From Bacillota bacterium (lineage in GTDB: Bacteria > Bacillota > Clostridia > Peptostreptococcales > Anaerovoracaceae), in assembly GCA_017442785.1 (NCBI GenBank), contig JAFRZB010000012.1:1-53157 (forward strand): 53,157 bases of DNA, written 5' to 3'. Of the stretch, positions 10,304-43,094 are shown in pieces. Position numbers and translations under genes: made by a program. The notes under the pieces were generated by a model. That model did not search any database. It saw only the letters and a list, made by a program, of their open reading frames with translations, and was not told the origin of the DNA. How positions within the stretch are numbered: the first letter of the stretch is position 1; every line of letters begins with the position of its first letter.

Positions 10304-10716
10304 AGGTCTTCATGGTTTTTCTTGCGCTCGTGCTGGTATTTTCCGCGGCGCTTGTCTTCTCTTCGGACATTTCGGAATACGTAAGGCTGCAGAAGAGGCT
10401 CAAGGTGCTGGCCGAGGACTGCGCGGAGGCCGCAGCTCTTTGCGTGGATAAAAAAGCCTCGGAGGCTTCGGGCGCTCTTGTTATAGACCTTGCAAGGGGA
10501 AGGGCCGCCGCGGAGGAGCTCTGCAGAAAGACTGTCAGCTCCGGCGCGTTTGGAAAGGATGCCCGAATAAGCGTAAAAATAAGCCCCTACGGCAGCTGCG
10601 GCGTAAGGGCTGAGCTTGTATTTTCGGGAAGAGACCTTTTCAGGCTGGCGTTTCTGCGCCTTGATTCTTTTTCGCGGAGCGCCGCCTATGAATGGATACC
10701 GCAGCAGGCACGGTGA
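10300..10716 (+). CDS. Small TadE-like protein 4
   Basis: 138 residues from TTG 10300 (TTGA overlap with the preceding stop): MKVFMVFLALVLVF, one membrane helix, then LQKRLKVLAEDCAEAAAL, a heptad-like helix typical of TadE/TadF pseudopilins, and a beta-rich end. The TTG start keeps the MK-x-F opening and the NTGA overlap seen in the two previous genes. ATG 10312 with AAGG 5 nt upstream is a credible alternative, 4 residues shorter. Its last 77 bp overlap the 3' end of the opposite-strand gene. Confidence 0.6.
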   Translation: MKVFMVFLALVLVFSAALVFSSDISEYVRLQKRLKVLAEDCAEAAALCVDKKASEASGALVIDLARGRAAAEELCRKTVSSGAFGKDARISVKISPYGSCGVRAELVFSGRDLFRLAFLRLDSFSRSAAYEWIPQQAR

Positions 10717-11329
10717 CGATTATCACAAGTACGAGGCCGAGGGCAAAGGTGATGGCCTGAGTCCACTTCTGAAAGTCCGACCCTATCAGAGGAGCGGCCT
10801 TGTTTATCAGGAAGATCACTGCTACGCCCAGAAGCACGTAAAGGAAGTTCCTGGGCCTGAGTATCTCTTTGAGCGGGATGTCCGGGAACATGGCCTTGGC
10901 GCCTATCGTTACTATCGCCATTATCACGACTGCCATGAGCACCCAGTTGAGCACTGCGCCCAGTACGGGTGAGAGCACTGCCGAAAAGGCTGCGCCGGCG
11001 GTCCTGGATACCAGAGCTCCTAGCGCATAGAGCGGCACGACAACTGCGGCTCTTACCCCAGCGGGCAGAGCCATTATCTTCTGCGCCAGCCGCTGCTTTA
11101 AGGTGAGCCTCTTTTCCTCTTCCTCCGCGATCTTTTCAACAACCGGAGGAGCTTCTGCCTTCTTAAGATCCACCACCTCCACTATGGGGGTGGGTTCTTT
11201 TATGTCCGACATCATTATGTCCGACGCGGAATCAAAGGTGCTGCTCACCGTAACGCCCGTAAAAAGGGATATGGCTGTGGCCGCCGCAATAATTTTTCCT
11301 TTTAAAGTCTTGCCTTTTTTGATCTCCAT
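10640..11329 (-). CDS. Membrane protein of unknown function
   Basis: 229 residues. An N-terminal hydrophobic segment (IIAAATAISLFTGVTVSS) could be a signal or anchor. Then comes an acidic/proline stretch (EPTPIVEVV, EAPPVVEKIAEEEEKR), a basic helix (LTLKQRLAQKIM) and four or more hydrophobic segments in the C-terminal half, ending with a basic tail (IHRRRSAKK). I do not recognise a family. ATG 11329 is chosen because the predicted -10 (TATTAT) ends 6 nt upstream, making the transcript effectively leaderless; an in-frame ATG at 11347 lies upstream of that -10. The 3' end overlaps the Tad-like cluster's last gene convergently. Confidence 0.6.
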   Translation of the reverse strand: MEIKKGKTLKGKIIAAATAISLFTGVTVSSTFDSASDIMMSDIKEPTPIVEVVDLKKAEAPPVVEKIAEEEEKRLTLKQRLAQKIMALPAGVRAAVVVPLYALGALVSRTAGAAFSAVLSPVLGAVLNWVLMAVVIMAIVTIGAKAMFPDIPLKEILRPRNFLYVLLGVAVIFLINKAAPLIGSDFQKWTQAITFALGLVLVIIVTVPAAVSIHRRRSAKKNQGAETPA

Positions 11330-11335
11330 GCCTGA

Positions 11336-11364
11336 ATAATACCACATACCGCTTTTTCTTGCAA
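11336..11364 (-). promoter_or_regulatory. Promoter for the minus-strand membrane protein (leaderless)
   Basis: Reading the minus strand: TTGCAA (11364-11359), 17-bp spacer, TATTAT (11341-11336). The expected start is at or next to the A of the ATG at 11329. TTGCAA is its own reverse complement and is also the -35 of the thrS promoter on the other strand. Confidence 0.55.
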
Positions 11365-11387
11365 ATGAAGTATTTGTGGAGTATAAT
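11359..11387 (+). promoter_or_regulatory. thrS promoter
   Basis: TTGCAA (11359-11364), 17-bp spacer, perfect TATAAT (11382-11387). The predicted start near 11394 gives a leader of about 35 nt, too short for a T-box riboswitch. The -35 hexamer is shared with the divergent promoter on the minus strand. Confidence 0.75.
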
Positions 11388-11393
11388 ACTCCA
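11377..11393. repeat. Perfect 17-bp palindrome over the thrS -10 box (candidate operator)
   Basis: TGGAGTATAATACTCCA: 8-bp arms around a single central base, centred on the thrS -10 hexamer. A repressor bound here would block RNA polymerase. No regulator is identified. Confidence 0.5.
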
Positions 11394-11430
11394 AATGTAT
11401 TTTAGCCTTGACGTATAAGGAGGAATAATG

Positions 11431-13188
11431 ATGTCAGAGGAAAACAAGTACACCTTTGAGAACGAGGAGTATCGCCAGACGTATTGGCATACCTGCTCGC
11501 ACATAATGGCGCAGGCAGTAAAGAGGCTTTGGCCGGAAGTAAAACTGGCCATAGGTCCGTCCATCGCGGAAGGATGGTATTACGACATGCTGGCGCCCTT
11601 CGCCTTCACTCCGGAGCACATGGAGCAGATAGAGGCGGAGATGAAGAAGATATGCAAGGAAGGGCTTAAGATAGAACGTTTCGAGCTCCCAAGAGACGAA
11701 GCTATCGCCTTCATGAAGGAAAAGGAAGAGCCTTTCAAAGTAGAGCTCATAAACGACCTGCCCGAGGGCGAGGCCATCTCGTTCTACAGACAGGGCGAAT
11801 TCACCGATCTTTGCGCGGGCCCGCATCTGGACAGCACCAGCCGCGTAAAGCACAACGCCTTCAAGCTGCTCACATGCAACGCCGCGTACTGGAGAGGCGA
11901 TTCCAACAGGGAGACCCTTCAGCGTATATACGGAATAGCCTTCCAGAAAAAGGAAGAGCTGGAGCAGTATCTGGAGCGCATAGAAGAAGCCAAGAAGAGG
12001 GACCACAGAAAGCTCGGAAGAGAGCTCGGTCTGTTCGCATTCCGCGACGAGGCCCCCGGCTTCCCGTTCTACCTGCCCAAGGGCATGGTCCTTCAGAACA
12101 CGCTCATCGACTACTGGAGGCAGATGCACAAGAAATACGACTACCTGGAGATCTCCACGCCTCAGATCATGAAGCGCACGCTCTGGGAGACATCCGGCCA
12201 CTGGGACCACTACAAGGACAACATGTACACCACGGTGATCGAGGACGAGGACTACGCCATAAAGCCCATGAACTGCCCCGGTTCCATACTGGTATACGCC
12301 CTTGAGCCGCACAGCTACAGGGATCTTCCGCTGCGCTACGGCGAGCTGGGAAGGGTGCACAGACATGAGCTGTCCGGAGCTCTTCACGGAATGTTCCGCG
12401 TAAGGTGCTTCACTCAGGACGACGCCCACATACTGCTTGCCAAGGATCAGATCCAGGGCGAGGTGGTACGCATCACCAAGCTCATAGACGAAGTCTACAA
12501 CGTGTTCGGACTTCCGTATAAGATAGTTCTCTCAACGATGCCGGAGGACCACATAGGCACCCGCGGCGACTGGGAGAAGGCGGAGGCCGCCCTTGCGGAC
12601 GCCATCACGTCCATAGGCAAGACCTACGAGATAAACCCCGGAGACGGTGCGTTCTACGGCCCCAAGCTGGACTTCCACGTAACGGACTGCCTCGGAAGGG
12701 TATGGCAGTGCGGCACCATCCAGCTGGACTATCAGCTGCCCGGAAGGTTCGATCTTGAGTACACCGATTCCAACTCCGAGAAGCAGACTCCGGTAATGAT
12801 ACACCGCGTCGTCTACGGTTCCATAGAGCGCTTCATAGGCGTAATAACGGAGCACTTTGCGGGAGCGTTCCCCACATGGCTGTCCCCGGTGCAGGTAAAG
12901 ATACTGCCTGTTACTGACAGGGCATACGGGTACGCGGACGGCATCAAGGAGAAGCTCGAGGCCCTCGGCTACCGTGTGGAAGTGGACAAGCGAAACGAGA
13001 AGACCGGCCGCAAGATACGCGACGCCCAGGTGGAGAAGGTCCCGTACATGATAGTGGTAGGCGATCGCGACATGGAGGCCGGCACGCTGGCGCCAAGGCA
13101 CCGCTCGGAAGGCGATCTCGGCACCATGAGCTTCGACGATTTCCTTGCGCTCCTTAAGGACGATGTCGACAACAAGAAGATCAAGTAA
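11431..13188 (+). CDS. thrS: Threonyl-tRNA synthetase lacking the TGS domain
   Basis: Class II aminoacyl-tRNA synthetase charging tRNA-Thr; cytosolic. 585 residues against about 640 in standard ThrRS: the N-terminal TGS domain is absent and the protein starts almost directly at the editing domain (HTCSH, H20 and H24; later DLCAGPHLDST). The catalytic core has the zinc-ligand MNCPGS segment, motif 2 (FRVRCFTQDDAH) and motif 3 region (YGSIERFIG), then the anticodon-binding domain (VQVKILPVTDRA). AAGGAGG (11417-11423) is 7 nt from ATG 11431; ATG 11428, one codon earlier, is too close. No T-box precedes it and no clear terminator follows. Confidence 0.96.
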   Translation: MSEENKYTFENEEYRQTYWHTCSHIMAQAVKRLWPEVKLAIGPSIAEGWYYDMLAPFAFTPEHMEQIEAEMKKICKEGLKIERFELPRDEAIAFMKEKEEPFKVELINDLPEGEAISFYRQGEFTDLCAGPHLDSTSRVKHNAFKLLTCNAAYWRGDSNRETLQRIYGIAFQKKEELEQYLERIEEAKKRDHRKLGRELGLFAFRDEAPGFPFYLPKGMVLQNTLIDYWRQMHKKYDYLEISTPQIMKRTLWETSGHWDHYKDNMYTTVIEDEDYAIKPMNCPGSILVYALEPHSYRDLPLRYGELGRVHRHELSGALHGMFRVRCFTQDDAHILLAKDQIQGEVVRITKLIDEVYNVFGLPYKIVLSTMPEDHIGTRGDWEKAEAALADAITSIGKTYEINPGDGAFYGPKLDFHVTDCLGRVWQCGTIQLDYQLPGRFDLEYTDSNSEKQTPVMIHRVVYGSIERFIGVITEHFAGAFPTWLSPVQVKILPVTDRAYGYADGIKEKLEALGYRVEVDKRNEKTGRKIRDAQVEKVPYMIVVGDRDMEAGTLAPRHRSEGDLGTMSFDDFLALLKDDVDNKKIK

Positions 13189-24437: not shown

Positions 24438-25610
24438 ATGAAGGGCTTAAATGTTTTATACATTGTCGGTGGTGAAGGGCATCGTTATGGATCTGAGACG
24501 ATAGCGATTGAATTGCTTTCAGCTGCGCAGGCAAACGGAATCAGGTACACTGTGATATGTGCAAATAAAGGCGCCGTATCAGAAGAGTGTGAAAGATTAG
24601 GAGTAAAGTATTTTGTTGCCCCTTTTAAGTTCTACGTATATAAGAAACCGCGTAGTTTTATCTTGAATTGCATTAAGAAAGCTGTTTGGAGAGTCAGGGC
24701 TGATTTTCTTACAGCGAGAGCAGTCAGGTTTATTGAGAACAATGTGGATATTGGCATTATAGATATAATCCATACTAATTTAAGCAGGGATCTTTTGGGC
24801 GGATTATTATCTAGAAAGTACGGTATTCCCCATGTCTGGCATATTCAGGAATTGTTCAGAGCGCATTATCAGCTCACTTTTTTACGCAGCGATCAGATCA
24901 ATTGGATGTCTGATCATGCTGATAAGTTTGTTGCGATCTCTAATACGGTCGCAAAAGATTGGATCAGCGAGGGGTTGCCAACTGATAAAGTATGTGTAAT
25001 TAAAAACGGTATTGAGCTGTCATGTGTTTCCCAGAAAAAACAGTTTGATCCTTCAGCTGCTCTTAAGCTTGTTATGGTTGGACACCTTGTTCCCGCAAAG
25101 GGGCAGGAACAAGTTATAAGATGCCTTTCAAGACTTCCTGATGAGATTCAGAAAAATATCACATTAGATTGCATAGGTGATGGAGAAACTGCTTATAAAG
25201 ATCACCTTCGCAGATATGCTTCTGAATGCGGTGTGAATATGCGTCTGTGTGGCTATCGAAGCGATATTTGCAATATTTTAAAAGATTATGATATAGGAAT
25301 CAATTATTCAGCCGGCGAGGGTTTTGGTCTTACGACTGTTGAGTATATGGCCGCAGGGTTATGTCCTATAGTAGCAAATACTGGTGCAAATACTGAATTG
25401 GTCGATGACAAAGAGAATGGATTCGTATTTGATTTTTCAAGTGAAGACAGCTTTGATTCGTTAATCACGTATCTGTATAACAACAGAGATGTATTATCAT
25501 CGGTGGCAAATAATGCTACAAAAAAAGCCTTTAGCGAGTTTGACGTTGATAGAATGTGTAGACAGGTGTTCAAACTATATGATCAACTTGCATGTATGGA
25601 CAGGAAATGA
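24438..25610 (+). CDS. Family 4 glycosyltransferase
   Basis: 390 residues, retaining GT-B enzyme. N-terminal glycine-rich acceptor loop (GGEGHRYGSETIAIELL), C-terminal donor domain with LVMVGHLVPAKGQEQVI, GYRSDICNILKDYDI and SAGEGFGLTTVEYMAAGL (the E-x7-E type motif). Adds a hexose-type sugar from a nucleotide donor at the cytoplasmic face. AT-rich, unremarkable length. Confidence 0.9.
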   Translation: MKGLNVLYIVGGEGHRYGSETIAIELLSAAQANGIRYTVICANKGAVSEECERLGVKYFVAPFKFYVYKKPRSFILNCIKKAVWRVRADFLTARAVRFIENNVDIGIIDIIHTNLSRDLLGGLLSRKYGIPHVWHIQELFRAHYQLTFLRSDQINWMSDHADKFVAISNTVAKDWISEGLPTDKVCVIKNGIELSCVSQKKQFDPSAALKLVMVGHLVPAKGQEQVIRCLSRLPDEIQKNITLDCIGDGETAYKDHLRRYASECGVNMRLCGYRSDICNILKDYDIGINYSAGEGFGLTTVEYMAAGLCPIVANTGANTELVDDKENGFVFDFSSEDSFDSLITYLYNNRDVLSSVANNATKKAFSEFDVDRMCRQVFKLYDQLACMDRK

Positions 25611-25615
25611 TTATT

Positions 25616-26425
25616 ATGAAGCAGATCGATTCCTCTGAGTTAAAGAAAATACAAATATGTTTACTGGATAGTTTTGATGGATTCTGTAGAAGAAACGGTA
25701 TTCATTACTGGCTCGATTATGGAACACTTCTCGGGGCTGTCAGGCATAAGGGTTTTATTCCCTGGGACGATGATGTGGATATTTCTATGCTTCGGGAAGA
25801 TTACGAGAAAGCGGCCTCCTTGTATAATGTCCAGTCAGACGGAAGATTTGTATTTCAAACACAATCTAATACGAAAGATTCCTGCTATCCCTTTGGGAAG
25901 CTTATTGATTCTAATACTGTTTTATATGAGTATGGTGAGACAGGTATCGAGACCGGAGTATACATTGATGTTTTTGTGTATGATAACGCTCCGGATGACA
26001 AGGAGAAGTCGGATAGAGTTTTTAGAAAAAGAGATCTCCTTGGGAGGATAAGGCGTCTTCAGTTGCCAATGAGAAAGGGTATGACTGGAAAAAAAAAGAT
26101 GGCCTATAAAATAGGGTCGACTATTATGCATCTTTTCCCTCGCGGGCTTATTAACAGGGCGCTGGACAAAAACGCAAGACGGTATGAACATGTTTCGACC
26201 AAATTTGTCAGCCCATTTGTTGATCCTTATGACCCTACATATTTCAAAGTTGAAAAAACAGTATTTCAGGACCTGGTGGAAATCGAATTTGAAGGAAAAC
26301 TGTATTTTGCCCCACGGAACTATGATTACTGGTTGGGGATACTGTACGGTAATTATATGGAATTGCCACCGGTTGAAAATAGAGTAAACCATCATATTTT
26401 TGAGGCATTTTATAAAGAGTCCTGA
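25616..26425 (+). CDS. LicD-family phosphotransferase 1
   Basis: 269 residues, LicD/fukutin-type nucleotidyltransferase-fold protein. Signature near the N-terminus: HYWLDYGTLLGAVRHKGFIPWDDDVDIS, the G-T-L-L-G-A-x-R-H and D-D-D-x-D elements that hold the metal and CDP donor. Family members transfer phosphocholine (or a related phospho-headgroup) from a CDP-activated donor to a glycan. ATG 25616 has AGGA 10 nt upstream and matches the start of the second LicD; in-frame ATGs at 25592 and 25607 have worse spacing. It pairs with the LicC-like enzymes at 35975 and 40478. Confidence 0.92.
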   Translation: MKQIDSSELKKIQICLLDSFDGFCRRNGIHYWLDYGTLLGAVRHKGFIPWDDDVDISMLREDYEKAASLYNVQSDGRFVFQTQSNTKDSCYPFGKLIDSNTVLYEYGETGIETGVYIDVFVYDNAPDDKEKSDRVFRKRDLLGRIRRLQLPMRKGMTGKKKMAYKIGSTIMHLFPRGLINRALDKNARRYEHVSTKFVSPFVDPYDPTYFKVEKTVFQDLVEIEFEGKLYFAPRNYDYWLGILYGNYMELPPVENRVNHHIFEAFYKES

Positions 26426-27761: not shown

Positions 27762-27796
27762 TGGAAGAATTAAAAAGCCAGTGAAAGGCCTTGAAC

Positions 27797-28621
27797 ATGA
27801 TCGAATTAACGCAAGCGCAGTGTATCGAAATAAGAAAAAGCGTTCTGTATGAGTTTCATAAAAAGTGTGAGTCGCTGGGCGTAAAGTACGCTTTGGGGTA
27901 TGGAACGCTTCTTGGGGCAGTAAGGCACGGTGGTATGATTCCGTGGGATGATGATATTGATGTAATTGTTCCGAGGGAAGACTTTGAGAAATTGTGCAAC
28001 ATCTACAGCAAGAATGACTGTAAAGACCGCTATCAATTCGTAACACATCGCAATCACCCCGAGATCAAAACAAAGATCGGATACTTCATCGATTTTAATA
28101 CAATAACGGAGACTGCGAACACAACAAAGGAATACCATGGTGTTCATATCGATGTTTACCCGGTCGATGTGTTGCCCAATGATAGCTTTTCTCAAAAGCT
28201 TTTGTTCATCAGGCGAAGGTTTCTTCAGACTTTGATTCGTGCAAAGGATATACATCCTGAAGTTATGCATGGAACTCAAAAACTGATAAGGCAGATAGTT
28301 CTCTTACTATGTGCTCCGTTTAATTATGATAAGGCATTGGATAAACTGCATCTGGTTGCAAAAGCCTGGTCAACAGTTCCAGAAGAAGAGAAAAAGACAG
28401 CATGTGTGCTTGTTGAAACAGGAACACCGATTTGTTTCCCATATAATATAACCAAGGAGTATGCATTATACAATTATGATGGTCATGCATACTGGGGTTT
28501 TAAAGATTATGACAGTATTCTTAGGGCTTGGTATGGAGACTATATGACTCCGCCTCCGGACTCAGAACGGGTCAGGCCTGAGCATAGATTTGTCCATTTC
28601 TATTACAAGGATGAGATATGA
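27797..28621 (+). CDS. LicD-family phosphotransferase 2
   Basis: 274 residues with the same signature as the first LicD: LGYGTLLGAVRHGGMIPWDDD followed by IDVI, then a metal-fold core and a terminal YGDYMTPPPDSER patch. The two proteins align along most of their length but are clearly divergent, so they probably modify different positions or use different headgroups. ATG 27797 has GAAAGG 8 nt upstream. The stop overlaps the flippase start by 4 bp (ATGA). Confidence 0.92.
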   Translation: MIELTQAQCIEIRKSVLYEFHKKCESLGVKYALGYGTLLGAVRHGGMIPWDDDIDVIVPREDFEKLCNIYSKNDCKDRYQFVTHRNHPEIKTKIGYFIDFNTITETANTTKEYHGVHIDVYPVDVLPNDSFSQKLLFIRRRFLQTLIRAKDIHPEVMHGTQKLIRQIVLLLCAPFNYDKALDKLHLVAKAWSTVPEEEKKTACVLVETGTPICFPYNITKEYALYNYDGHAYWGFKDYDSILRAWYGDYMTPPPDSERVRPEHRFVHFYYKDEI

Positions 28622-34268: not shown

Positions 34269-34879
34269 TGGGTCAAATAACGGTTGAGAAGGATCTTGAT
34301 GGGATAGAAGGACTTTGCCTGATAACACCAGCTGTCCATGGTGACAGCCGAGGGTACTTTATGGAGACATACTCCGCCAGGGATATGGCTGAGGCAGGCC
34401 TAGATATAGTATTCGTTCAGGACAATCAGAGTATGAGTACCAAGGGCGTGCTCAGAGGGCTGCATTTCCAGAAGCAGTATCCGCAGACGAAGCTTGTACG
34501 AGTAATTAAAGGTGAAGTATTTGATGTGGCGGTTGATCTTAGAATCGGTTCCAAGACCTACGGGAAGTGGCACGGCGAACTGCTGACTGAGGAAAACAAG
34601 AAGCAGTTCTTTATCCCACGCGGCTTTGCGCATGGCTTCCTTGTTCTCTCCGATACAGCAGAATTTTGCTATAAGTGTGATGATTTCTATCATCCAAATG
34701 ACGAGGGCGGACTTGCGTGGAACGATCCGGATATAGGTATCTTATGGCCTTGTCTTGAAGGGGAATACCATGGTACTGCAAATGCAGCTGGATATACAGT
34801 AGACAGTGTTCCGCTGAATATGTCTGAGAAAGACCAGAAGTGGCTTAGAATCAAACACTTGGTCTTAAGTCATGAGTAG
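34268..34879 (+). CDS. rfbC: dTDP-4-dehydrorhamnose 3,5-epimerase
   Basis: 203 residues, cupin-fold epimerase. Motifs: DSRGYFMETYS, FVQDNQSMSTKGVLRGLHFQ (catalytic His in RGLHFQ), VDLRIGSKTYGKW, IPRGFAHGF and the tyrosine/base region near EFCYKCDDFYHP. Completes the rhamnose pathway with its neighbours. Confidence 0.97.
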   Translation: MGQITVEKDLDGIEGLCLITPAVHGDSRGYFMETYSARDMAEAGLDIVFVQDNQSMSTKGVLRGLHFQKQYPQTKLVRVIKGEVFDVAVDLRIGSKTYGKWHGELLTEENKKQFFIPRGFAHGFLVLSDTAEFCYKCDDFYHPNDEGGLAWNDPDIGILWPCLEGEYHGTANAAGYTVDSVPLNMSEKDQKWLRIKHLVLSHE

Positions 34880-35780
34880 TATTAAAAACGTTGTTACTCA
34901 AATTCTGATAGCTATTATTATAATGATTGCCTTGTTTTTTTGTCTTTTTCGGACGACGGGTCATACGAAGGTGTATGAAAGGGTCATTATAATTGGTGTT
35001 GACGGTGCAGGCAGTTTCTTTAAAGATGTTGAGGCTGAGTGCTTTAACAGTATCTTTGAATCAAATAACATAACGTATACCATGAAGACGGAGATCCCTA
35101 CGATAAGTGCCCAGTGCTGGGGGTCGATGATCTATGGTGTGCCACATGATGTTCACGGCTTGACTAATGCTATTGTCGAAAAAGAAGAGTTTCACAGCAG
35201 CCAGCTAAACAGCATCTTCAAGGTCGCTTGCTCAAGATACCCTGAGGCTTCAATAGCTTCGATCGTAGGTTGGTCACCGATCAATTATGGGATCATAGAC
35301 TGCAAAGACGAAATGTATCTGTATCCGGATATTCCTGGGGACCACTTTATGGATTGCCATGAAGTGTTAAAAAACGTTATCGACTATTTACAGATCAATG
35401 ATCCCAAACTCATGTTTGTTCATTTTGATGATGTTGATCATGCCGGGCATGCATTCGGATGGGGCAGTGAGGAGTATAAGTCTGCCTTATTAGAAGTGGA
35501 TCAGTGCATCGGAACGATCTGGGATACCCTAAAGAATAAAGGTTTGATAGAGAACTCTTTGTTTGTTCTCATAGCTGATCACGGTGGAACCGGTAAAACA
35601 CATGGTGGTGACACTGAAGAAGAAGTAAATGTGGTTTTTGCTGTATCAGGCGAAGGGTTAAACGATAAGGACTCTATCGGAGAAATGACCATAGAAGATG
35701 TTTATGCGGTAGTTCTTAATGCGTTAGGCATTGACAATGACCGGCAAGTCGGGACTATTCCTGCAGGACTTTTTCAATAG
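34872..35780 (+). CDS. Membrane-anchored alkaline-phosphatase-superfamily phosphodiesterase
   Basis: 302 residues: a single N-terminal membrane helix (about 8-27) and an extracellular catalytic domain. Superfamily metal-site elements: IIIGVDGAG (D44), the nucleophile segment EIPTISAQCWGSMI (74-87), HFDDVDHAGHAFG and IADHGGTGKTHGG. This resembles type-I phosphodiesterase/nucleotide pyrophosphatase proteins. It is the second surface phosphohydrolase of the locus and overlaps rfbC by 8 bp. Possible substrates are phosphodiester-linked glycan substituents or glycerophosphodiesters (inference). Confidence 0.82.
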   Translation: MSSIKNVVTQILIAIIIMIALFFCLFRTTGHTKVYERVIIIGVDGAGSFFKDVEAECFNSIFESNNITYTMKTEIPTISAQCWGSMIYGVPHDVHGLTNAIVEKEEFHSSQLNSIFKVACSRYPEASIASIVGWSPINYGIIDCKDEMYLYPDIPGDHFMDCHEVLKNVIDYLQINDPKLMFVHFDDVDHAGHAFGWGSEEYKSALLEVDQCIGTIWDTLKNKGLIENSLFVLIADHGGTGKTHGGDTEEEVNVVFAVSGEGLNDKDSIGEMTIEDVYAVVLNALGIDNDRQVGTIPAGLFQ

Positions 35781-35974: not shown

Positions 35975-36871
35975 ATGGAACTGAACAGAAAACAGTTCGA
36001 CGTCTTGGAGGCATTAGTCTCTTCAAAAGAGAATCTGACTCAGAGACAGCTTGAAGAGATCACCGGCCACAGTCTTGGTACGATAAACCGTATCATAAAA
36101 GAATTAACTGAAACTGGTTTTGTCGAGGATGGTAAGATCACAAATTCCGGGATCAACGCGCTCGAGCCTTACCGCGCAAAGAGGGCGATCTTTATCGCTG
36201 CGGGATTTGGGACAAGACTCGTCCCTATCACTTTCAACACACCTAAGCCGCTCGTCAGAGTCCATGGCGTCAGGATAATCGACAGGCTGATAGATGCATG
36301 TCTGGAAGCCGGGATCAATGAGATATTCATCGTAAGAGGGTATCTCGGCGAATTGTTCGATCAGCTGCTTTATAAGTATCCAATGGTCAAATTTCTGGAG
36401 AATCCTGTTTATAACGAGGCGAATAACATCTCCAGCTCACTGGTCGCCCGCTACATGCTCTCAAATGCTTACGTGTTTGAGGCAGATCTTTTGATCTCCA
36501 ATCCAAAGATAATCCGCAAATACCACTATACCTCTGACTTCCTTGCGATCAAGAAGGAAAGAAGTGATGACTGGTGCTTCAGGGTAAAGGACGGTATCAT
36601 CCAGGAAGAAAAGGTCGGCGGCGAGGGCGATGACATCTGGCAGATGGTTGGTATCAGCTACTGGAACGAGACTGATGGCCATAAGCTCTCACAGGACATC
36701 CAGGATGTATACGCTTCTCCGGGCGGAAAAGAACGTTACTGGGAACAGGTCCCCCTTGTTTACCGCAAGGAACACTACTCAGTCGAGGTCCGTGAATGCC
36801 ATGACGAGGATATCGTTGAGATAGATACCTTTAAAGAGCTTAAGGCGATCGATAAGACTTACGATGTGTAG
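35975..36871 (+). CDS. licC: Winged-helix/LicC-like CTP:phosphocholine (or related) cytidylyltransferase
   Basis: 298 residues in two parts. Residues 1-65 form a winged helix-turn-helix (RKQFDVLEALVSSKENLT; ITGHSLGTINRIIKELTE; wing FVEDGKITNSG). From 66 on is a LicC-type nucleotidyltransferase: AAGFGTRL (75-82), TPKPLVRVHG (89-98), NNISSS (150-155), metal Asp D171 in FEADLLI, DDWCF (198-202), GISYW (226-230) and a terminal IVEIDTFKEL with D284. Classical LicC is only the second part. The product would be CDP-choline or a related CMP-headgroup, the donor for the LicD proteins. GGAGG precedes the ATG. The role of the DNA-binding-type domain is unknown; self-regulation or allosteric use is possible. 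Confidence 0.85.
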   Translation: MELNRKQFDVLEALVSSKENLTQRQLEEITGHSLGTINRIIKELTETGFVEDGKITNSGINALEPYRAKRAIFIAAGFGTRLVPITFNTPKPLVRVHGVRIIDRLIDACLEAGINEIFIVRGYLGELFDQLLYKYPMVKFLENPVYNEANNISSSLVARYMLSNAYVFEADLLISNPKIIRKYHYTSDFLAIKKERSDDWCFRVKDGIIQEEKVGGEGDDIWQMVGISYWNETDGHKLSQDIQDVYASPGGKERYWEQVPLVYRKEHYSVEVRECHDEDIVEIDTFKELKAIDKTYDV

Positions 36872-36901
36872 AGACCATACGGGTCCTTGGAAAGGCAAGT
36901 A

Positions 36902-38377
36902 ATGACTGATAAGACACAACAACATAATGACGGTGATCTTAAGCGATCGCTTTCACCCATGCACGTATGGGCAATTGCTTTCGGGTGCGTGATCGGCTGG
37001 GGCTCGTTCATTAACCCAGGCAAAAAGTTCCTGAGCAACTCCGGTGTTGCAGGTACTGCGATAGCCATGGTATTGGGCGCGGTCGTCATGATCATAATCG
37101 CCTTCAGCTATGCGTATATGGTACCTAAGTATCCAAAGGCCGGCGGTGAGTTCACATTTACTAAAAACTGCTTCGGTAAGAACATGGCTTTCGTCTGTGG
37201 CTGGTTCCTGGTGGTTGCCTATCTAACCAACGTGCCGATGAACTCTACAGCCATCGGACTGATAGTTGACGGTCTGGACGGGAATGCCAATATACTCAAA
37301 TTCGGGTTCCATTACAATATAGCCGGTTTTGATATATATATGGGAGAGATGCTGCTTGCTGCGGCGATCCTGATACTGTTTGGATATCTGAATATAATCG
37401 GTGTGCAGAAGGCTGCGATAGTGCAGACGATCCTGAGCTCAATGCTGGTAATATGTGTGTTTACGTTGTTCGTGTCGGCGCTCATCAGTTCCAAAGCGAC
37501 CGGTATCAATATGGAACCCATCTGGGGCTTTGATAAGAGCGCCGCGATGGAAGCAGGCGTGAACACCTCCGGTATCGGGGAATTCGCGCATAAGGGCACC
37601 GCAGGGATAATCAGCGCTATATTAGCTACTTTTGCGATCGCACCGTGGGCATACGTCGGATTTGACGCTATTCCGCAGGCCGCTGAAGAGTTTAACTTCA
37701 GCTTCAGAAAAGTGTCCTTCATAATGATCATAGCCATCGTATTCGGATGCTTTGTATATGTCAGCAACAACACAGTCGCCGCAGCTGCATTGACGAATTG
37801 GCCGGACAGGGTAATGAACGGCGAGTGGGTAGTCCTTGTAGCGGCAGAGGAGCTCCTCGGAGGCTTTGGGAAGGTACTGGTAGGGCTTGGTGTATCGTGT
37901 GCTGTTCTTTCCGGTATAATGGGCTTCTATCTGGCATCGAGTCGCCTGATGTATTCGATGAGCAGAGAAGGTTATCTACCGGAAATGTTCGGACGAGTCG
38001 ACAAAAAGTACGGAACTCCGAAGAATGCAATGATATTCTGCATTATCGTTAGTCTCTCCGGGCCGATCCTTGGGCGTGAAGCTCTGGGATGGTTCGTTGA
38101 CATGAGCGCGATAGGTGCGAGCATTGGTTATTTCTTTACATCTGCGGCGACCCTGGTGACTCTGAAGAAAGACGGTGACGGCACGAGATTCCTCAAGACT
38201 ATGGCTACGGTCGGTGTCTTGTTCAGTTTGATCTTCATGATCCTTCAGCTGGTTCCGATTCCGGGATTAAACGGTGTGCATTTCGGCAAGGAAAGCTATA
38301 TCATGCTCGTGATATGGATCGCGATAGGATTCGTATTCTACATGAAGCAGAGGAGGTTCTTCTCTGAAAAGGAATAG
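36902..38377 (+). CDS. APC-superfamily amine/amino-acid permease
   Basis: 491 residues, about twelve membrane helices. The N-terminal helix 1 motif VIGWGSFINPGKKFLSNSG and the AYMVPKYPKAGGEFTF segment are typical of the APC superfamily; WAYVGFDAIPQAAEEF lies in the middle. GGAAAGG is 6 nt before ATG 36902. Cotranscribed with the licC-like gene 30 bp upstream, so the substrate is probably the headgroup or its precursor (choline, ethanolamine or an amino acid); specificity cannot be read from sequence. Confidence 0.85.
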   Translation: MTDKTQQHNDGDLKRSLSPMHVWAIAFGCVIGWGSFINPGKKFLSNSGVAGTAIAMVLGAVVMIIIAFSYAYMVPKYPKAGGEFTFTKNCFGKNMAFVCGWFLVVAYLTNVPMNSTAIGLIVDGLDGNANILKFGFHYNIAGFDIYMGEMLLAAAILILFGYLNIIGVQKAAIVQTILSSMLVICVFTLFVSALISSKATGINMEPIWGFDKSAAMEAGVNTSGIGEFAHKGTAGIISAILATFAIAPWAYVGFDAIPQAAEEFNFSFRKVSFIMIIAIVFGCFVYVSNNTVAAAALTNWPDRVMNGEWVVLVAAEELLGGFGKVLVGLGVSCAVLSGIMGFYLASSRLMYSMSREGYLPEMFGRVDKKYGTPKNAMIFCIIVSLSGPILGREALGWFVDMSAIGASIGYFFTSAATLVTLKKDGDGTRFLKTMATVGVLFSLIFMILQLVPIPGLNGVHFGKESYIMLVIWIAIGFVFYMKQRRFFSEKE

Positions 38378-38492: not shown

Positions 38493-38521
38493 TTGACTAA
38501 TGCGCTTCATTTGTATATAAT
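38493..38521 (+). promoter_or_regulatory. Strong promoter of the ABC importer/fusion operon
   Basis: TTGACT (38493-38498), 17-bp spacer, perfect TATAAT (38516-38521). The leader is about 130 nt and rich in repeats (next entry). The rest of the 279-bp gap holds the upstream terminator and AT-rich sequence. Confidence 0.8.
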
Positions 38522-38522
38522 C

Positions 38523-38610
38523 TCGTTCATAATGAAAACATTTTGTATGAGTATTTGAACGAATTATGCTGGCATTAAACGAGTTTTGCTGCATTTTTGT
38601 TCAAAACAGC
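38523..38610. repeat. Repeat-rich leader (candidate regulatory region)
   Basis: TCGTTCA (38523-38529) pairs with TGAACGA (38556-38562) as an inverted repeat. Two near-identical direct repeats, AACGAATTATGCTGGCATT (38558-38576) and AACGAGTTTTGCTGCATT (38578-38595), follow with a 20-bp period. GTTCAAAACAGC (38599-38610) ends the region and is the reverse complement of a 12-mer before the licC-like gene. Two-turn spacing suits a DNA-binding dimer or oligomer. Confidence 0.4.
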
Positions 38611-38656
38611 TTACATGCCAAATTGGAATAAGACATTGATAATGCGGGAGAAGATC

Positions 38657-39694
38657 ATGAGAAAGAAAACATACCTATTTGCACTTGTGCTGCTTTGCTG
38701 CCTCTTTGTTGTAATGACTGGATGCGGAGCAAATGGAAACAACTCTGAAGGACACTCAGGAAAAGGCGACAGAGTGGTCATCTACACTGCAGCAGAAGAT
38801 GAACGTATTGCATACATACAGGAAGAACTGGATAAAAAATTCCCGGACACAGAGATAGTTATACAGTCTCTAGGTACCGGGCAGCTGCTTTCCAAGCTTC
38901 AGGCAGAAGGTAAGTCCGGTGATTGTGACATATTCTATGACCTTGAAGTAGTTAATGCTGAGATCATCTTAAACGCTTCTCCGGACCTTTTTGTAGATCT
39001 GAAAGACTATGATTTCTCCATCTATGACGCTTCTGTTACCGGTTATACCTCTAACCATCATAAGTATGCAGTAAATGGTAAGACAGCAGGGGCGTTCCTT
39101 GTTAATACGAAAATGCTCAAGGATAAGGGACTGTCAGTTCCTAAGACATATGAAGATATGCTGAAGCCTGAGTATAAAGGGCTAATCTCCATGCCTAGTC
39201 CAAAGTCTTCCGGTACAGGCTACAGCTATTACAACGGCATGATCACCGTGCTCGGAGATGAAGCCGGAATGAGATACTTTGAAGAGCTCAATCTGAATAT
39301 CAAAGAGTACACCACTTCCGGTTCTGCACCCGCAAAGGCCGCTGTCCGAGGAGATGTGGCTATCGCTTATGGACTGCTCTGGCAGTGTGTTAATTACGCA
39401 AATGATAATGATGGCCTGGAAGTAATCGTTCCTGATAAAGGGCTCGCTTTCGACCTGTTTACCATGGGGATGATCTCCGGACACGAGACAAAGGGCAGTG
39501 TTAAGGAAGTGTTCACCTATCTCTTCAATGATCTCAATAAGCCTCAGTGCGCAAAGTTTAATCCGGACAAGATATACAAGGACATGCCCGCAGCTGAGAT
39601 AAAGAACTATCCCACAGGTTACAGTGAGATCTCAATGAAGGGACTGTTTGATTTCCAGTACAAGCAGGAGCTTCTGGATAAGTGGTCGTATTAG
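38657..39694 (+). CDS. ABC importer substrate-binding lipoprotein
   Basis: 345 residues with a lipoprotein signal (VVMTGC, C23) and an extracellular binding-protein fold of the iron/polyamine/2-aminoethylphosphonate group: VVIYTAAEDERI at the start, GDCDIFYDLEV, GAFLVNTKML, VPKTYEDMLKPEYKG and GRGD-like later turns. GGGAG is 6 nt before ATG 38657; the frame is open further upstream but without a ribosome site. Binding proteins of this group recognise small anions or amines; a phosphonate or phospho-amine ligand would fit the operon. Confidence 0.88.
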   Translation: MRKKTYLFALVLLCCLFVVMTGCGANGNNSEGHSGKGDRVVIYTAAEDERIAYIQEELDKKFPDTEIVIQSLGTGQLLSKLQAEGKSGDCDIFYDLEVVNAEIILNASPDLFVDLKDYDFSIYDASVTGYTSNHHKYAVNGKTAGAFLVNTKMLKDKGLSVPKTYEDMLKPEYKGLISMPSPKSSGTGYSYYNGMITVLGDEAGMRYFEELNLNIKEYTTSGSAPAKAAVRGDVAIAYGLLWQCVNYANDNDGLEVIVPDKGLAFDLFTMGMISGHETKGSVKEVFTYLFNDLNKPQCAKFNPDKIYKDMPAAEIKNYPTGYSEISMKGLFDFQYKQELLDKWSY

Positions 39695-39713: not shown

Positions 39714-40481
39714 ATGGCGGATACCATCATCCAGGCTATAAACATCAGTAAAAAGTTCAGATCCAAGACAGTCCTGGAAGATATCTCGTTTTCCGTAAAC
39801 AGGGGAGAATTCCTTTCGCTGCTCGGGCCTTCCGGCTGTGGAAAGACGACTATTCTAAGAATGCTCATCGGGATCGAGCAGCCTACCAGCGGAAGAATAC
39901 TAAAGGACGGCATCGACATTACTCATGCTGCGCCGAAGGACCGGAACATAGGGATAGTATTTCAAAACTATTCGCTGTTTCCTAACATGGATGTTTATCA
40001 TAACATTGCATACGCGCTCCAGGCAAAGCACATTGACAAAGATGACATAGACCGCAAGGTCAAAGAGATGGTCTCAACTGTTGGACTCGAGGATCATATC
40101 TTTAAGAAGCCCAAACAGCTTTCCGGAGGTCAACAGCAGCGTGTTGCGATAGCCCGTACCCTTGTTCTGAATCCTGATATCATCCTGTTCGACGAACCCA
40201 TGAGCGCACTGGATGCAGAGATCAAACTTATCCTCAGGCAGCTTCTGAAGGATATACAAAGGAAGCTTGGGATCACCATGGTCTACGTTACACATGATCA
40301 GGAGGAGGCCTTTGCCCTGTCTGACCGCATAATGGTGCTGAATGATCTTAAGATCGCTCAGATGGATACGCCTTATGATCTTTATCATAACCCCGCAGAT
40401 CCTTTCATAAAAAGATTCGTGGTGGATCACCTGGATCTTAAAGTCAGGAGCATTGAGGACAGCATAGGAGAGAACATATGA
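39714..40481 (+). CDS. ABC importer ATPase (PotA/FbpC-like)
   Basis: 255 residues. Walker A GPSGCGKTT (38-46), Q-loop VFQNYSLFP, signature LSGGQQQRVAIAR, Walker B IILFDEPMSALD, switch His in VTHDQEEA. It lacks the C-terminal regulatory TOBE domain of longer PotA/FbpC proteins. GGAGG is 6 nt before ATG 39714; its stop overlaps the permease start by 4 bp (ATGA). Confidence 0.95.
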   Translation: MADTIIQAINISKKFRSKTVLEDISFSVNRGEFLSLLGPSGCGKTTILRMLIGIEQPTSGRILKDGIDITHAAPKDRNIGIVFQNYSLFPNMDVYHNIAYALQAKHIDKDDIDRKVKEMVSTVGLEDHIFKKPKQLSGGQQQRVAIARTLVLNPDIILFDEPMSALDAEIKLILRQLLKDIQRKLGITMVYVTHDQEEAFALSDRIMVLNDLKIAQMDTPYDLYHNPADPFIKRFVVDHLDLKVRSIEDSIGENI

Positions 40482-43057
40482 AGTCCTGGATCATGCGTTT
40501 GGGTAAGACTGTCAGGCACGAGTATCTGCGCCTGATAGCTGTCATTTGCATTCTGGCGTTTGCTCTCCTTCCGCTGCTCACTCTGGCGTTCCATGTAAAT
40601 GGAAATGACTGGCAGTTCATTCTTAAAGACAGCAGCTTTAAGGATGCCATAAAGAATTCTCTGGTCTATACGACTGCAGCAGCGCTGCTTACGACGTTTT
40701 TGGCACTGGTTGCCGCTTATCTGCTGAACACTTCCGGACTTCGGAAAAAGAAACTGTTTGTGATCGCTTTGTCTTTGGGAATGCTTGTACCGACCATCTC
40801 CGTCGGACTTGGCCTTCGCATCCTGTTTGGAACAAACGGATTCTTAGACCTGCTCTTTGGATTGGAGATAGAAGTTCGGGGGTATGCAGGTCTTATCATT
40901 GGCTCTGTCATGACATCTTTCCCGGCGACTTTCCTTATCTTGTACGATGCGCTTCAGTATGAGGATAAGGGCCCTTACGACGCCGCAGATATCATGGGAA
41001 TAAAAAGGATAAGTACCTTCTTCAGGCTGACGGTCCCTTATCTGCGAATAGCTCTGATCTCTGCCTTTTTTGCATGTTTTACTCTCATATTCTCTGATTA
41101 CGGTATGCCTATGGAGATCGCAGGGAAGGTGAAGACTCTTCCTATGTACCTGTATGATCAGTTCATGAGCAGTTTTCAATATGGTAGGGGAAGTATCGCA
41201 GGTTTTGTCCTTCTGATCCCCGCTGTGATCTCTTTTCTCTTTGACCTTGTGTTTAAGGATCAGAGCGTCGGGGAAAAACAGAAGAAATTGATAGGCGTAG
41301 AAAAAAGCTTCGACCATGTTTCGGCAGTGATCATCGTGGTGCTTTGCGTCATTCTGTTCCTCCCGCAGCTGGCATTTATCAGTCTGTCTTTTACTAAGTC
41401 GTTTCCGAACGATCTGTCATTCACGTTCAGCCATATTGCAAACATTTTTTCCAACACCCATGGTGTAGGGCTGACACAGTATATTCTGAACTCACTTAAA
41501 CTTGCTCTTCTCACGGCAATTGCAGGTACCGCATTCGCTTACCTGCTGGGATATTTAAGTGTCCGAAAGACAGGGCGAATGGGCAAGGTGATAGATCTGC
41601 TGTCTCTGGCTACTATAGCTATTCCCGGTCTTGTCCTTGGAATTGGTTATATCTTTCTTTTCAAAGGTACGAACGGGGCGTTTTATGGTACCATACTTAT
41701 CCTTGTAGTAGTAAACGTCTTTCATTTTCTGGGCTCTCCGTATCTGCTGGCTAAAAACTGCCTCAACAAGATCAACAGCGAATATGAGGTCATAGGTGAG
41801 ACACTTGGAATAAGTAAAGGCAGGATAATCAGGAACGTTCTGATTCCATCTTCTGTCACATCTTTGGTGGAGATGTTCTCGTACTTTTTTCTCAACAGCA
41901 TGATAACTATCTCTGCTGTTGCATTTCTGTGTTCGTACGATGATCAGCCTCTCTCGATACTGATCACCACTTATGAAAAGAACAGTAATTACGAGATGCA
42001 GAGCGTCATCTCGCTTATCATACTGTTCCTTAATGTAATAGCAAGAGTAGTGTTTACCGGAATCAACACGGTCATTAACAGAAAAAGCAACATGGAAGTG
42101 GAAGGCTGGATCGTTCTTGACCGTTATGAGTTCGATCTTCTGACCTATTTAGAAAAGAATGGAAAGGGTGTATACAGCCAGAGAAGGCTTGCAGATGATC
42201 TTACAATCACTCTTTCAAACGCCGACAAGCTCGTAAAAGACCTCGCAGAGCGTGATTATATCAACCAACTCGCAGATGGTAGCATGGAGATCAGCGAAAA
42301 AGGTCTCAAGGCGTTGGAGCCTTACAGGGTGCGCAAGGCGATCATTCTTGCTGCAGGGTTCGGACAGCGGCTCGCTCCAGTAACGCTGGACACACCGAAA
42401 CCGTTGGTAAAGGTCAATGGTGTCAGGATCCTCGACACCTTGCTCGATGCTCTTTATGCAAAGGGCATCACTAATATTATTATAGTCAGAGGATATAAGA
42501 AAGAGCAGTTCGATCAACTGCTTGAGAAGTATCCGACCCTTCGTTTTATAGACAATCCGGAGTTTAATCTTGCCAATAATATAAGCTCTGCAGTGCATGC
42601 AATAGAACAGATAGACCGCTGCTATATCTGCGAAGCGGACCTTTACATTACCAATCAGGATGTAATTAATAAATATGAATACAGGACTAATTATCTAGGG
42701 GCAAAAGTAGCTGAGACTGACGACTGGTGTTTCAAAAAGAAAAACGGTATTTTATCAGATTATCAGCTTGGCGGGACGGACTGCTATCAGGCATTCGGCA
42801 TATCGTTTTGGGACGGCGAGGACGCCGAAAAGCTCAAGACTGATCTTCGTAAGGTATACAGTATGAGGGGAGGAAAGGAGAATCTCTGGGAGATGGTCCC
42901 ATTGAAGATCATGAGCAAAAACTACAGACTTGAGATCAGAAAATGTCACAAATCCGATATCATCGAGATCGACAACTTTATCGAACTGATAGCGGCAGAT
43001 CCAAGCTATGCAAGATATCCCGGGTATGAAGCATACAGCGGGGCATCGGCCAAATAA
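40478..43057 (+). CDS. Fusion: two-domain ABC permease + winged helix + LicC-like cytidylyltransferase
   Basis: 859 residues in one uninterrupted frame. About 1-538 is a double-length FbpB/PhnU-V-type permease, roughly twelve helices with two EAA loops (DAADIMGIKR near 168-177; YEVIGETLGISKG near 437-449). Residues 539-615 form a winged helix (FDLLTYLEKNGKG; RRLADDLTITLSNADKLVKDL), and 616-859 a complete nucleotidyltransferase: AAGFGQRL (625-632), TPKPLVKVNG (639-648), NNISS, metal Asp D721 in EADLYI, DDWCF, GISFW and IEIDNF with D832. The C-terminal part is collinear with the separate protein at 35975. An internal ATG at 42092 marks the ancestral start, but no ribosome site precedes it, so I read this as a true fusion. 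Import and CTP-activation of one substrate would be physically linked at the cytoplasmic face. Confidence 0.88.
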   Translation: MKSWIMRLGKTVRHEYLRLIAVICILAFALLPLLTLAFHVNGNDWQFILKDSSFKDAIKNSLVYTTAAALLTTFLALVAAYLLNTSGLRKKKLFVIALSLGMLVPTISVGLGLRILFGTNGFLDLLFGLEIEVRGYAGLIIGSVMTSFPATFLILYDALQYEDKGPYDAADIMGIKRISTFFRLTVPYLRIALISAFFACFTLIFSDYGMPMEIAGKVKTLPMYLYDQFMSSFQYGRGSIAGFVLLIPAVISFLFDLVFKDQSVGEKQKKLIGVEKSFDHVSAVIIVVLCVILFLPQLAFISLSFTKSFPNDLSFTFSHIANIFSNTHGVGLTQYILNSLKLALLTAIAGTAFAYLLGYLSVRKTGRMGKVIDLLSLATIAIPGLVLGIGYIFLFKGTNGAFYGTILILVVVNVFHFLGSPYLLAKNCLNKINSEYEVIGETLGISKGRIIRNVLIPSSVTSLVEMFSYFFLNSMITISAVAFLCSYDDQPLSILITTYEKNSNYEMQSVISLIILFLNVIARVVFTGINTVINRKSNMEVEGWIVLDRYEFDLLTYLEKNGKGVYSQRRLADDLTITLSNADKLVKDLAERDYINQLADGSMEISEKGLKALEPYRVRKAIILAAGFGQRLAPVTLDTPKPLVKVNGVRILDTLLDALYAKGITNIIIVRGYKKEQFDQLLEKYPTLRFIDNPEFNLANNISSAVHAIEQIDRCYICEADLYITNQDVINKYEYRTNYLGAKVAETDDWCFKKKNGILSDYQLGGTDCYQAFGISFWDGEDAEKLKTDLRKVYSMRGGKENLWEMVPLKIMSKNYRLEIRKCHKSDIIEIDNFIELIAADPSYARYPGYEAYSGASAK

Positions 43058-43065
43058 AATAAAGG

Positions 43066-43094
43066 GAAGGCCGGTCAGCCCGGCCTTCTTTTTT
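43066..43094 (+). terminator. Rho-independent terminator after the fusion gene
   Basis: GAAGGCCGG (43066-43074) and CCGGCCTTC (43080-43088), 9-bp perfect stem, 5-nt loop, then six Ts. Ends the importer operon 9 bp after its stop codon. Confidence 0.92.

Follow-up and report, generated by a model that had tools for sequence, protein, structure and literature searches.

Introduction

In the Lic pathway, the choline transporter LicB, the kinase LicA, LicC and LicD are separate proteins; the pathway starts from choline, includes a kinase step and is not known to use an ATP-binding cassette (ABC) importer. PntC nucleotidyltransferases include PntC-AEPT and phosphoenolpyruvate (PEP) mutase–nucleotidyltransferase fusions, and in Tde-PntC the residues Glu104 and Glu196 lie near the amine of 2-aminoethylphosphonate (AEP), at positions where Spn-LicC has Asp105 and Asp192 (Rice et al., 2019; PMC6697681, in part). 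ABC importers for AEP are known as PhnSTUV, AepXVW and AepSTU, and pfam13343 is present in AepX and AepS, the substrate-binding proteins (SBPs) of transporters for which AEP uptake was investigated with mutants (PMC8316502, in part). Here, we describe a gene that joins an AEP-type ABC permease, a winged helix and a LicC/PntC-type cytidylyltransferase in one protein of 859 residues (40478..43057, + strand). It lies in a 53,157-nucleotide stretch of contig JAFRZB010000012.1 from a Bacillota bacterium (GCA_017442785.1), and this whole stretch is called the window below. We consider it fairly probable that the fusion is an ABC importer subunit for AEP that tethers a cytidine triphosphate (CTP):AEP cytidylyltransferase, whose product, cytidine monophosphate (CMP)-AEP, would be destined for a surface glycan via LicD.

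Results

One frame joins a two-domain permease to a cytidylyltransferase

Translation of 40478-43057 (+) gave 859 codons without an internal stop, and Pfam and alignments located both permease and enzyme within this frame, as the original prediction had it. The permease part (residues 1-538; 40478..42091) showed 12 hydrophobic segments in a simple hydropathy scan. PF00528 was found twice in the protein, with its best stretch at residues 352-536, and two EAA-type cytoplasmic loops were recognized by sequence and alignment reading at residues 167-189 (40976..41044) and 436-457 (41783..41848), in agreement with the two-domain build proposed earlier. Three stand-alone permeases align end to end with this part, and their ends coincide with residue 538. 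Because two of the hydrophobic segments come after the second EAA-type loop, and from the known build of such permeases, the C-terminus including the enzyme part is predicted to be cytoplasmic.

The linker and winged-helix segment (residues 539-611; 42092..42310) was delimited by alignment with the free paralogue encoded at 35975 and with fused relatives. No Pfam match was obtained for the winged helix of the window's fusion protein itself, and MarR_2 was matched in 15 of 26 aligned fused proteins and in the paralogue; Pfam support for the winged helix named in the original prediction comes from these proteins. A decay of the winged helix within the fusion was also considered and found unsupported, its identity ratio to the enzyme being 0.69 in 27 fused proteins vs. 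0.60 in 49 free ones.

The cytidylyltransferase part (residues 612-845; 42311..43012; PF00483 at 620-736) bears E719, D721, W804, E805 and E830. Residues 536-845 are 46% identical to the free protein at 35975, which bears out the likeness claimed between the two. D721 is the equivalent of Spn-LicC Asp107 and E830 that of the metal-ligand Glu216, and both are kept; of the two metal-site Asp residues initially claimed, that at the Asp107 position stood, whereas the Asp105 position is occupied by a Glu (E719). The metal residues and the nucleotidyltransferase family of PntC are therefore present in the fusion, and the catalytic residues are kept in every copy that reaches them.

The fusion is conserved, and enzyme-domain trees call for at least two fusion events

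GTDB species genomes were scanned with an alignment of four permeases, and 80 of 168 relatives were analysed as loci, numbered with the prefix L. All 28 loci with a permease 50-82% identical to that of the window (L098-L125) carry the in-frame permease–enzyme fusion, four of them (L098, L114, L120, L122) being cut by contig ends. A second fusion, of 830 residues, was found in L137, an isolate record of Beduini massiliensis GM1; its permease is more distant (39%), and its enzyme is of the type of the window's free enzyme, LicC_A (58%). In the 51 other loci the permease is separate, and a LicC/PntC-type gene lies directly downstream in 48; L169 and L176 have no LicC-type gene, and in L173 the contig stops 114 bases past the permease. 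No further fusion was found when genomes of 149 relatives, 393 members of the order and 391 of the class were searched (the window's own counted in each), among the best candidates scored per genome and, for the order and class searches, among matches listed at E 1e-55 or better. Among the 80 loci analysed, the database search proposed along with the original prediction yielded 28 fused relatives and L137. Because the same open fusion occurs in 28 further contigs, chance or artefact is excluded, and the fusion is confirmed as genuine and not an assembly slip.

The titles of the loci records name Lachnospiraceae, Oscillospiraceae or Ruminococcaceae, Erysipelotrichaceae, Spirochaetales, Mollicutes and one Prevotella, mostly with labels of metagenome-assembled genomes (MAGs). 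Transfer between groups is likely, and misbinning of short contigs is possible. A goat or roe deer gut site is named in 4 of the 28 fused-locus titles, and nine others carry RUG isolate names, which we take to denote rumen genomes.

The two domains differ in what they tell of origin. In the permease tree (90 rows), the window and the 28 fused proteins form one clade with support of 100, and the placement of L137 is unsure; a single origin is compatible with this tree. The enzyme tree, built by a quick method from 114 rows after enzyme parts shorter than 220 residues were excluded, united 28 fused rows and three unfused relatives at a support of 97 and placed L137 among unfused enzymes, with two changes forced. 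When the set was reduced to 60 of these 114 rows, leaving out the LicC-choline-kinase kind and Spn LicC, one origin was rejected for the enzyme domain (p-AU 0.0038). On the enzyme-domain evidence, at least two fusion events took place.

Internal starts and the role of tethering

Whether the enzyme is also released as a free product bears on what the fusion does. In the subclade of the window (17 genes: the window's own and those of L098-L112 and L122), an in-frame ATG at about residues 531-549 occurs solely in the window, without a Shine–Dalgarno (SD)-like sequence, and 4 of the 17 (L101, L107, L111, L122) have GTG or TTG codons near the border that are accompanied by an SD-like sequence. In L113-L121, an ATG is kept at residues 542-546, the position of the old start, and an SD-like sequence accompanies it in seven of the nine. 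Judged from these codons, internal initiation is unlikely to yield a free enzyme in the window's subclade and may do so in L113-L121, because the latter keep both the in-frame ATG and, mostly, the SD-like sequence. Such a product would suit an account in which the fusion fixes stoichiometry or location without any hand-over, or is mainly regulatory, with the winged helix acting as a membrane-tethered substrate sensor; it would also fit that the winged helix is kept, its relative conservation being not below that in free enzymes. Set against this account are the catalytic residues kept in all copies reaching them and the improbable free product in the window's own subclade, where the sole ATG lacks an SD-like sequence, and we regard it as doubtful.

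Enzyme and importer both resemble AEP proteins

When LicC_A was aligned directly with Tde-PntC, Glu104 fell in the column of Spn-LicC Asp105. Glu occupies this column in the window's two proteins, in 29/29 fused relatives, in 50/50 free enzymes of L126-L177, in 16/16 free enzymes of fused loci and in 3/3 enzymes from AEP-synthesis loci, whereas Ser or Val stands there in 7/7 proteins of the LicC-choline-kinase kind (the kinase domain was found in six of these, L132 being cut by a contig end). An Asp or smaller residue, by which a LicC would be recognized, is found neither in the window protein nor in any of the 29 fused relatives. In the enzyme tree, LicC_A groups with the enzymes of L085 (78% identical), L087 and L091; beside each of these, AEP aminotransferase and phosphonopyruvate decarboxylase scored over cut-off, and PEP mutase did so at L085 (Pfam) and L087 (NCBIfam); in the L091 genome, the PEP mutase lies about 12 kb away. 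Since Glu marks the importer-linked and AEP-synthesis enzymes and Ser or Val the choline-kinase kind, these residues favour AEP over phosphocholine as the probable substrate.

A third LicC-like protein in the window's genome (G000:C50, L178:6854-7726) has Ser at the Asp105 position, and its gene adjoins a glycerophosphotransferase-type gene (PF04464) and one for an 875-residue YidC-domain protein (PF02096).

The importer parts were scored separately. For SBP, ATPase and permease alike, the best NCBIfam model belongs to the AEP set phnS2/PhnT2/PhnU2: the permease matched TIGR03262 PhnU2 at E 2.6e-90 (303.6 bits, cut-off 593), the SBP (38597..39694, +) matched TIGR03261 phnS2 at E 1.4e-48 (165.7 bits, cut-off 393), and the ABC ATPase (39714..40481, +) matched TIGR03265 PhnT2 (325.1 bits, cut-off 458). 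The best Pfam match of the window's SBP is pfam13343. Among six distant permease loci, PhnW and PhnX over cut-off accompany the permease in L092, L093, L094 and L096, and PhnX alone does so in L095; the L092 permease, the one such permease scored, is likewise under the PhnU2 cut-off (348 bits). In three of these loci with PhnW and PhnX, the permease is itself fused C-terminally to an SBP, giving proteins of 885-886 residues (L092:4500-7157, L093:5340-8000, L094:4663-7320 (-)).

Carrier genomes mostly lack PEP mutase matches, and LicD is frequent

Pathway genes were surveyed in 50 carrier genomes, comprising that of the window, 28 fused, L137 and 20 of the 51 unfused loci. PEP mutase was matched in nine (5/29 in the fused clade, 0/1 for L137, 4/20 unfused; positive controls 3/3) and had no match in the other 41, including the window's genome, which is 80% complete, so that the fusion was not found together with AEP-synthesis genes there. 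Phosphonatase scored over cut-off in 1/50 carriers (49/50 without), and no search for carbon–phosphorus lyase was made. LicD was matched in 31/50 (22/29 in the fused clade, 1/1 for L137, 8/20 unfused). With the window's genome excluded from both sets, LicD occurred in 21/28 fused-clade genomes vs. 18/148 relatives (Fisher p 4e-11), which hints at an enrichment between sets that differ in kinship. All gene absences are weakened by the incompleteness of MAGs.

At three of the five fused-clade genomes with PEP mutase (L180, L182, L183), no AEP aminotransferase match lay near it, and their PEP mutases may for this reason serve other phosphonates. In the fusion-carrying genomes of L180 (5709-7715) and L182 (6068-9094), the PEP mutases occur in long frames with a nucleotidyltransferase-like part.

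Weighing AEP against other substrates

Several observations weigh against AEP and its transfer by LicD. All three importer proteins score under the NCBI equivalog cut-offs, and at L097, the remaining distant locus, inspection by eye revealed neither PhnW nor PhnX. Among SBPs of solved structure, the closest are two entries named as iron binders and one pyridoxal-phosphate binder; because none is named an AEP binder, the ligand may be another organophosphate. The best sequence match among solved enzymes is Spn LicC (1JYK, E 1.7e-24), ahead of Tde PntC (2e-9), and near relatives of the fused enzyme occur beside or within LicC-choline-kinase proteins (L084, L086, L121), a setting that hints at phosphoethanolamine or a related substrate. 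LicD was not found in 19/50 carriers. The column of Tde-PntC Glu196, likewise proposed for AEP selectivity and located here through Spn-LicC Asp192, holds Glu in the window protein; tried as a substrate marker, it does not discriminate, as Glu also stands there in 7/7 of the choline-kinase kind and Asp in 46/50 of L126-L177.

The main rival substrate is accordingly phosphoethanolamine, or another primary-amine phosphate ester, which the same importer-activator would convert to cytidine diphosphate (CDP)-ethanolamine for surface decoration. Phosphoethanolamine is one atom away from AEP and would face the same Glu; enzymes related to the fused one adjoin or are fused to LicC-choline/ethanolamine-kinase proteins at the loci just named, and one nearest solved SBP relative binds a phosphorylated compound, pyridoxal phosphate. 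Yet AEP models give the best matches for the importer parts, PhnW/PhnX accompany related permeases, and the free enzymes nearest to the paralogue cluster with those of AEP-synthesis loci, which leaves phosphoethanolamine an unlikely choice. Phosphocholine fares worse. A device for it would be a Lic pathway shortcut without choline kinase, and both the proximity to Spn LicC and the absence of any matched kinase family among the cassette proteins scanned with Pfam would agree with that; however, every fused enzyme has Glu at the Asp105 position where choline types have Ser, Val or Asp, and choline types group apart, with weak support (73), so that we think phosphocholine very improbable.

At L121, the gene at 10460-13147 (-) encodes an 895-residue protein in which a LicC-type domain and an APH-type kinase domain are joined to a second, PntC-type nucleotidyltransferase domain that closely resembles the fused enzyme of the window, and an amidohydrolase-like gene, recognized by eye, adjoins it as in L084.

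Neighbourhood of the fusion gene

The TGA of the ATPase gene overlaps the ATG of the fusion gene as ATGA. The SBP has a lipoprotein-like N-terminus by eye, and a later ATG near 38657 is a possible start. A promoter-like TTGACT-17-TATAAT lies upstream of the importer genes, before the SBP gene (38493..38521, +), in a region where 9 promoter-like sites were found vs. 8.1 expected by chance. Directly 3′ of the fusion gene, a terminator-like stem, GAAGGCCGG/CCGGCCTTC, with a run of six T after it was read from the sequence (43066..43094, +); the site search lists it on the other strand only.

Upstream, the free winged-helix PntC-type cytidylyltransferase LicC_A (35975..36871, +) is followed directly by an APC-family permease (36887..38377, +), assigned by Pfam and locus comparison. 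The same pair occurs in L088, with a permease 86% identical, and in L101, and in L108 a phosphodiesterase gene lies in between. This APC permease may give the same substrate another way into the cell. A type I phosphodiesterase (PF01663) with an N-terminal membrane segment by eye precedes LicC_A (34872..35780, +), and the L108 phosphodiesterase that adjoins LicC_A is 48% identical to it. Within the fetched stretches, a free LicC_A-type enzyme (≥70% identical) was found in 10 of the 28 fused loci (L099, L100, L101, L104, L106, L108, L110, L111, L112, L114). Three arrangements of an importer next to a PntC-type enzyme are thus found, namely APC pair, ABC operon and ABC fusion.

The importer cassette forms the end of a polysaccharide cluster with Wzy-like, flippase-type and LCP genes and two LicD-family transferases (25592..26425 and 27791..28621, both +), each a candidate for the acceptor step. 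Repeats around the locus were limited to short two-copy or imperfect matches. As to plasmid carriage, 136 plasmid records match, and none has one place covering 80% of the query. Two similar genes, which by eye resemble ornithine cyclodeaminase, lie close to the importer at L101 (1092-2057) and L121 (9541-10437), loci that are distant from each other.

Discussion

The gene order in the window suggests a route from phosphodiesterase to SBP, then to the importer-enzyme and on to LicD. Along it, AEP, a phosphonate with a free amine, would be captured outside the cell by the SBP, and two copies of the ATPase would drive it through the two-domain permease. The tethered cytoplasmic enzyme would use CTP to turn the arriving AEP into CMP-AEP, which would trap the substrate in the cell and commit it to a LicD-type transferase; this in turn would decorate the surface polysaccharide whose synthesis the same cluster encodes. 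Environmental AEP would thereby be salvaged, with PEP mutase unneeded, and tethering might bring a kinetic benefit. The direct joining of an importer to its activating enzyme, as first proposed, is partly supported, since the enzyme gene follows the permease in 48/51 unfused loci and the enzyme tree calls for at least two fusions; the hand-over itself stays a prediction. Where the original prediction did not settle on one substrate, the present evidence points to AEP rather than phosphocholine. The broader reading is about evenly balanced in our view: a recurrent importer, fused at least twice by the evidence of the enzyme domain, would unite ATP-driven uptake and metabolic trapping in one polypeptide by a group-translocation-like logic, and AEP would pass through CMP-AEP to surface glycans in a salvage route that gut and rumen bacteria would use in place of making phosphonates de novo. 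That the frame reflects an assembly or sequencing error which removed a stop between two genes, a suspicion fed by the source being a MAG (1.73 Mb, 50 contigs, 80% complete) and by the lack of a second fusion among the best candidates scored per genome in the searches of relatives, order and class, is refuted for the family by the 28 further contigs and the L137 isolate.

If the proposed function is right, the protein would offer a defined example of uptake combined with substrate activation in one polypeptide, phosphonate-decorated surfaces would be expected in bacteria unable to make phosphonates, and genome surveys for such surfaces based on PEP mutase would miss these bacteria. The carriers of the fusion are mostly uncultured gut bacteria. 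Ciliates are a source of AEP. The importer fusion could bear on the use of AEP as a marker of rumen protozoa, as the titles of 13 of the 28 fused loci mention a gut site in a ruminant (4) or bear a RUG name (9); this marker has been questioned because AEP also occurs in bacteria and feed (PMC4659874, in part).

In the open-licence literature, we found no description of an importer–nucleotidyltransferase fusion or of AEP salvage to CMP-AEP, and the original prediction likewise knew of no described permease built in this way; the parts belong to known families, and the architecture and salvage route appear undescribed. The proposed route shares with the Lic pathway the sequence of uptake, activation by CTP and LicD transfer to a surface glycan (PMC6697681, in part). 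PntC, including its fused forms, offers the same kind of nucleotidyltransferase, with a Glu at the Glu104 position and the metal residues, but the fusions described in the parts of PMC6697681 concerned join biosynthetic enzymes, whereas here the enzyme forms the C-terminus of a transporter and 41/50 carriers have no PEP mutase match. The AEP ABC importers resemble the present one in the pfam13343 SBP (AepX, AepS), the ATPase and the permease, and AEP models match it best; the known ones feed degradation (PMC8316502, in part), whereas in the window fusion an activating enzyme is attached to the permease, and phosphonatase is over cut-off in a single carrier of the 50. The permease–SBP fusions of L092, L093 and L094, found beside PhnW and PhnX, come closest in build, having the same kind of permease with an extra C-terminal domain; in them the added domain is an SBP, whereas in the window fusion it is an enzyme.

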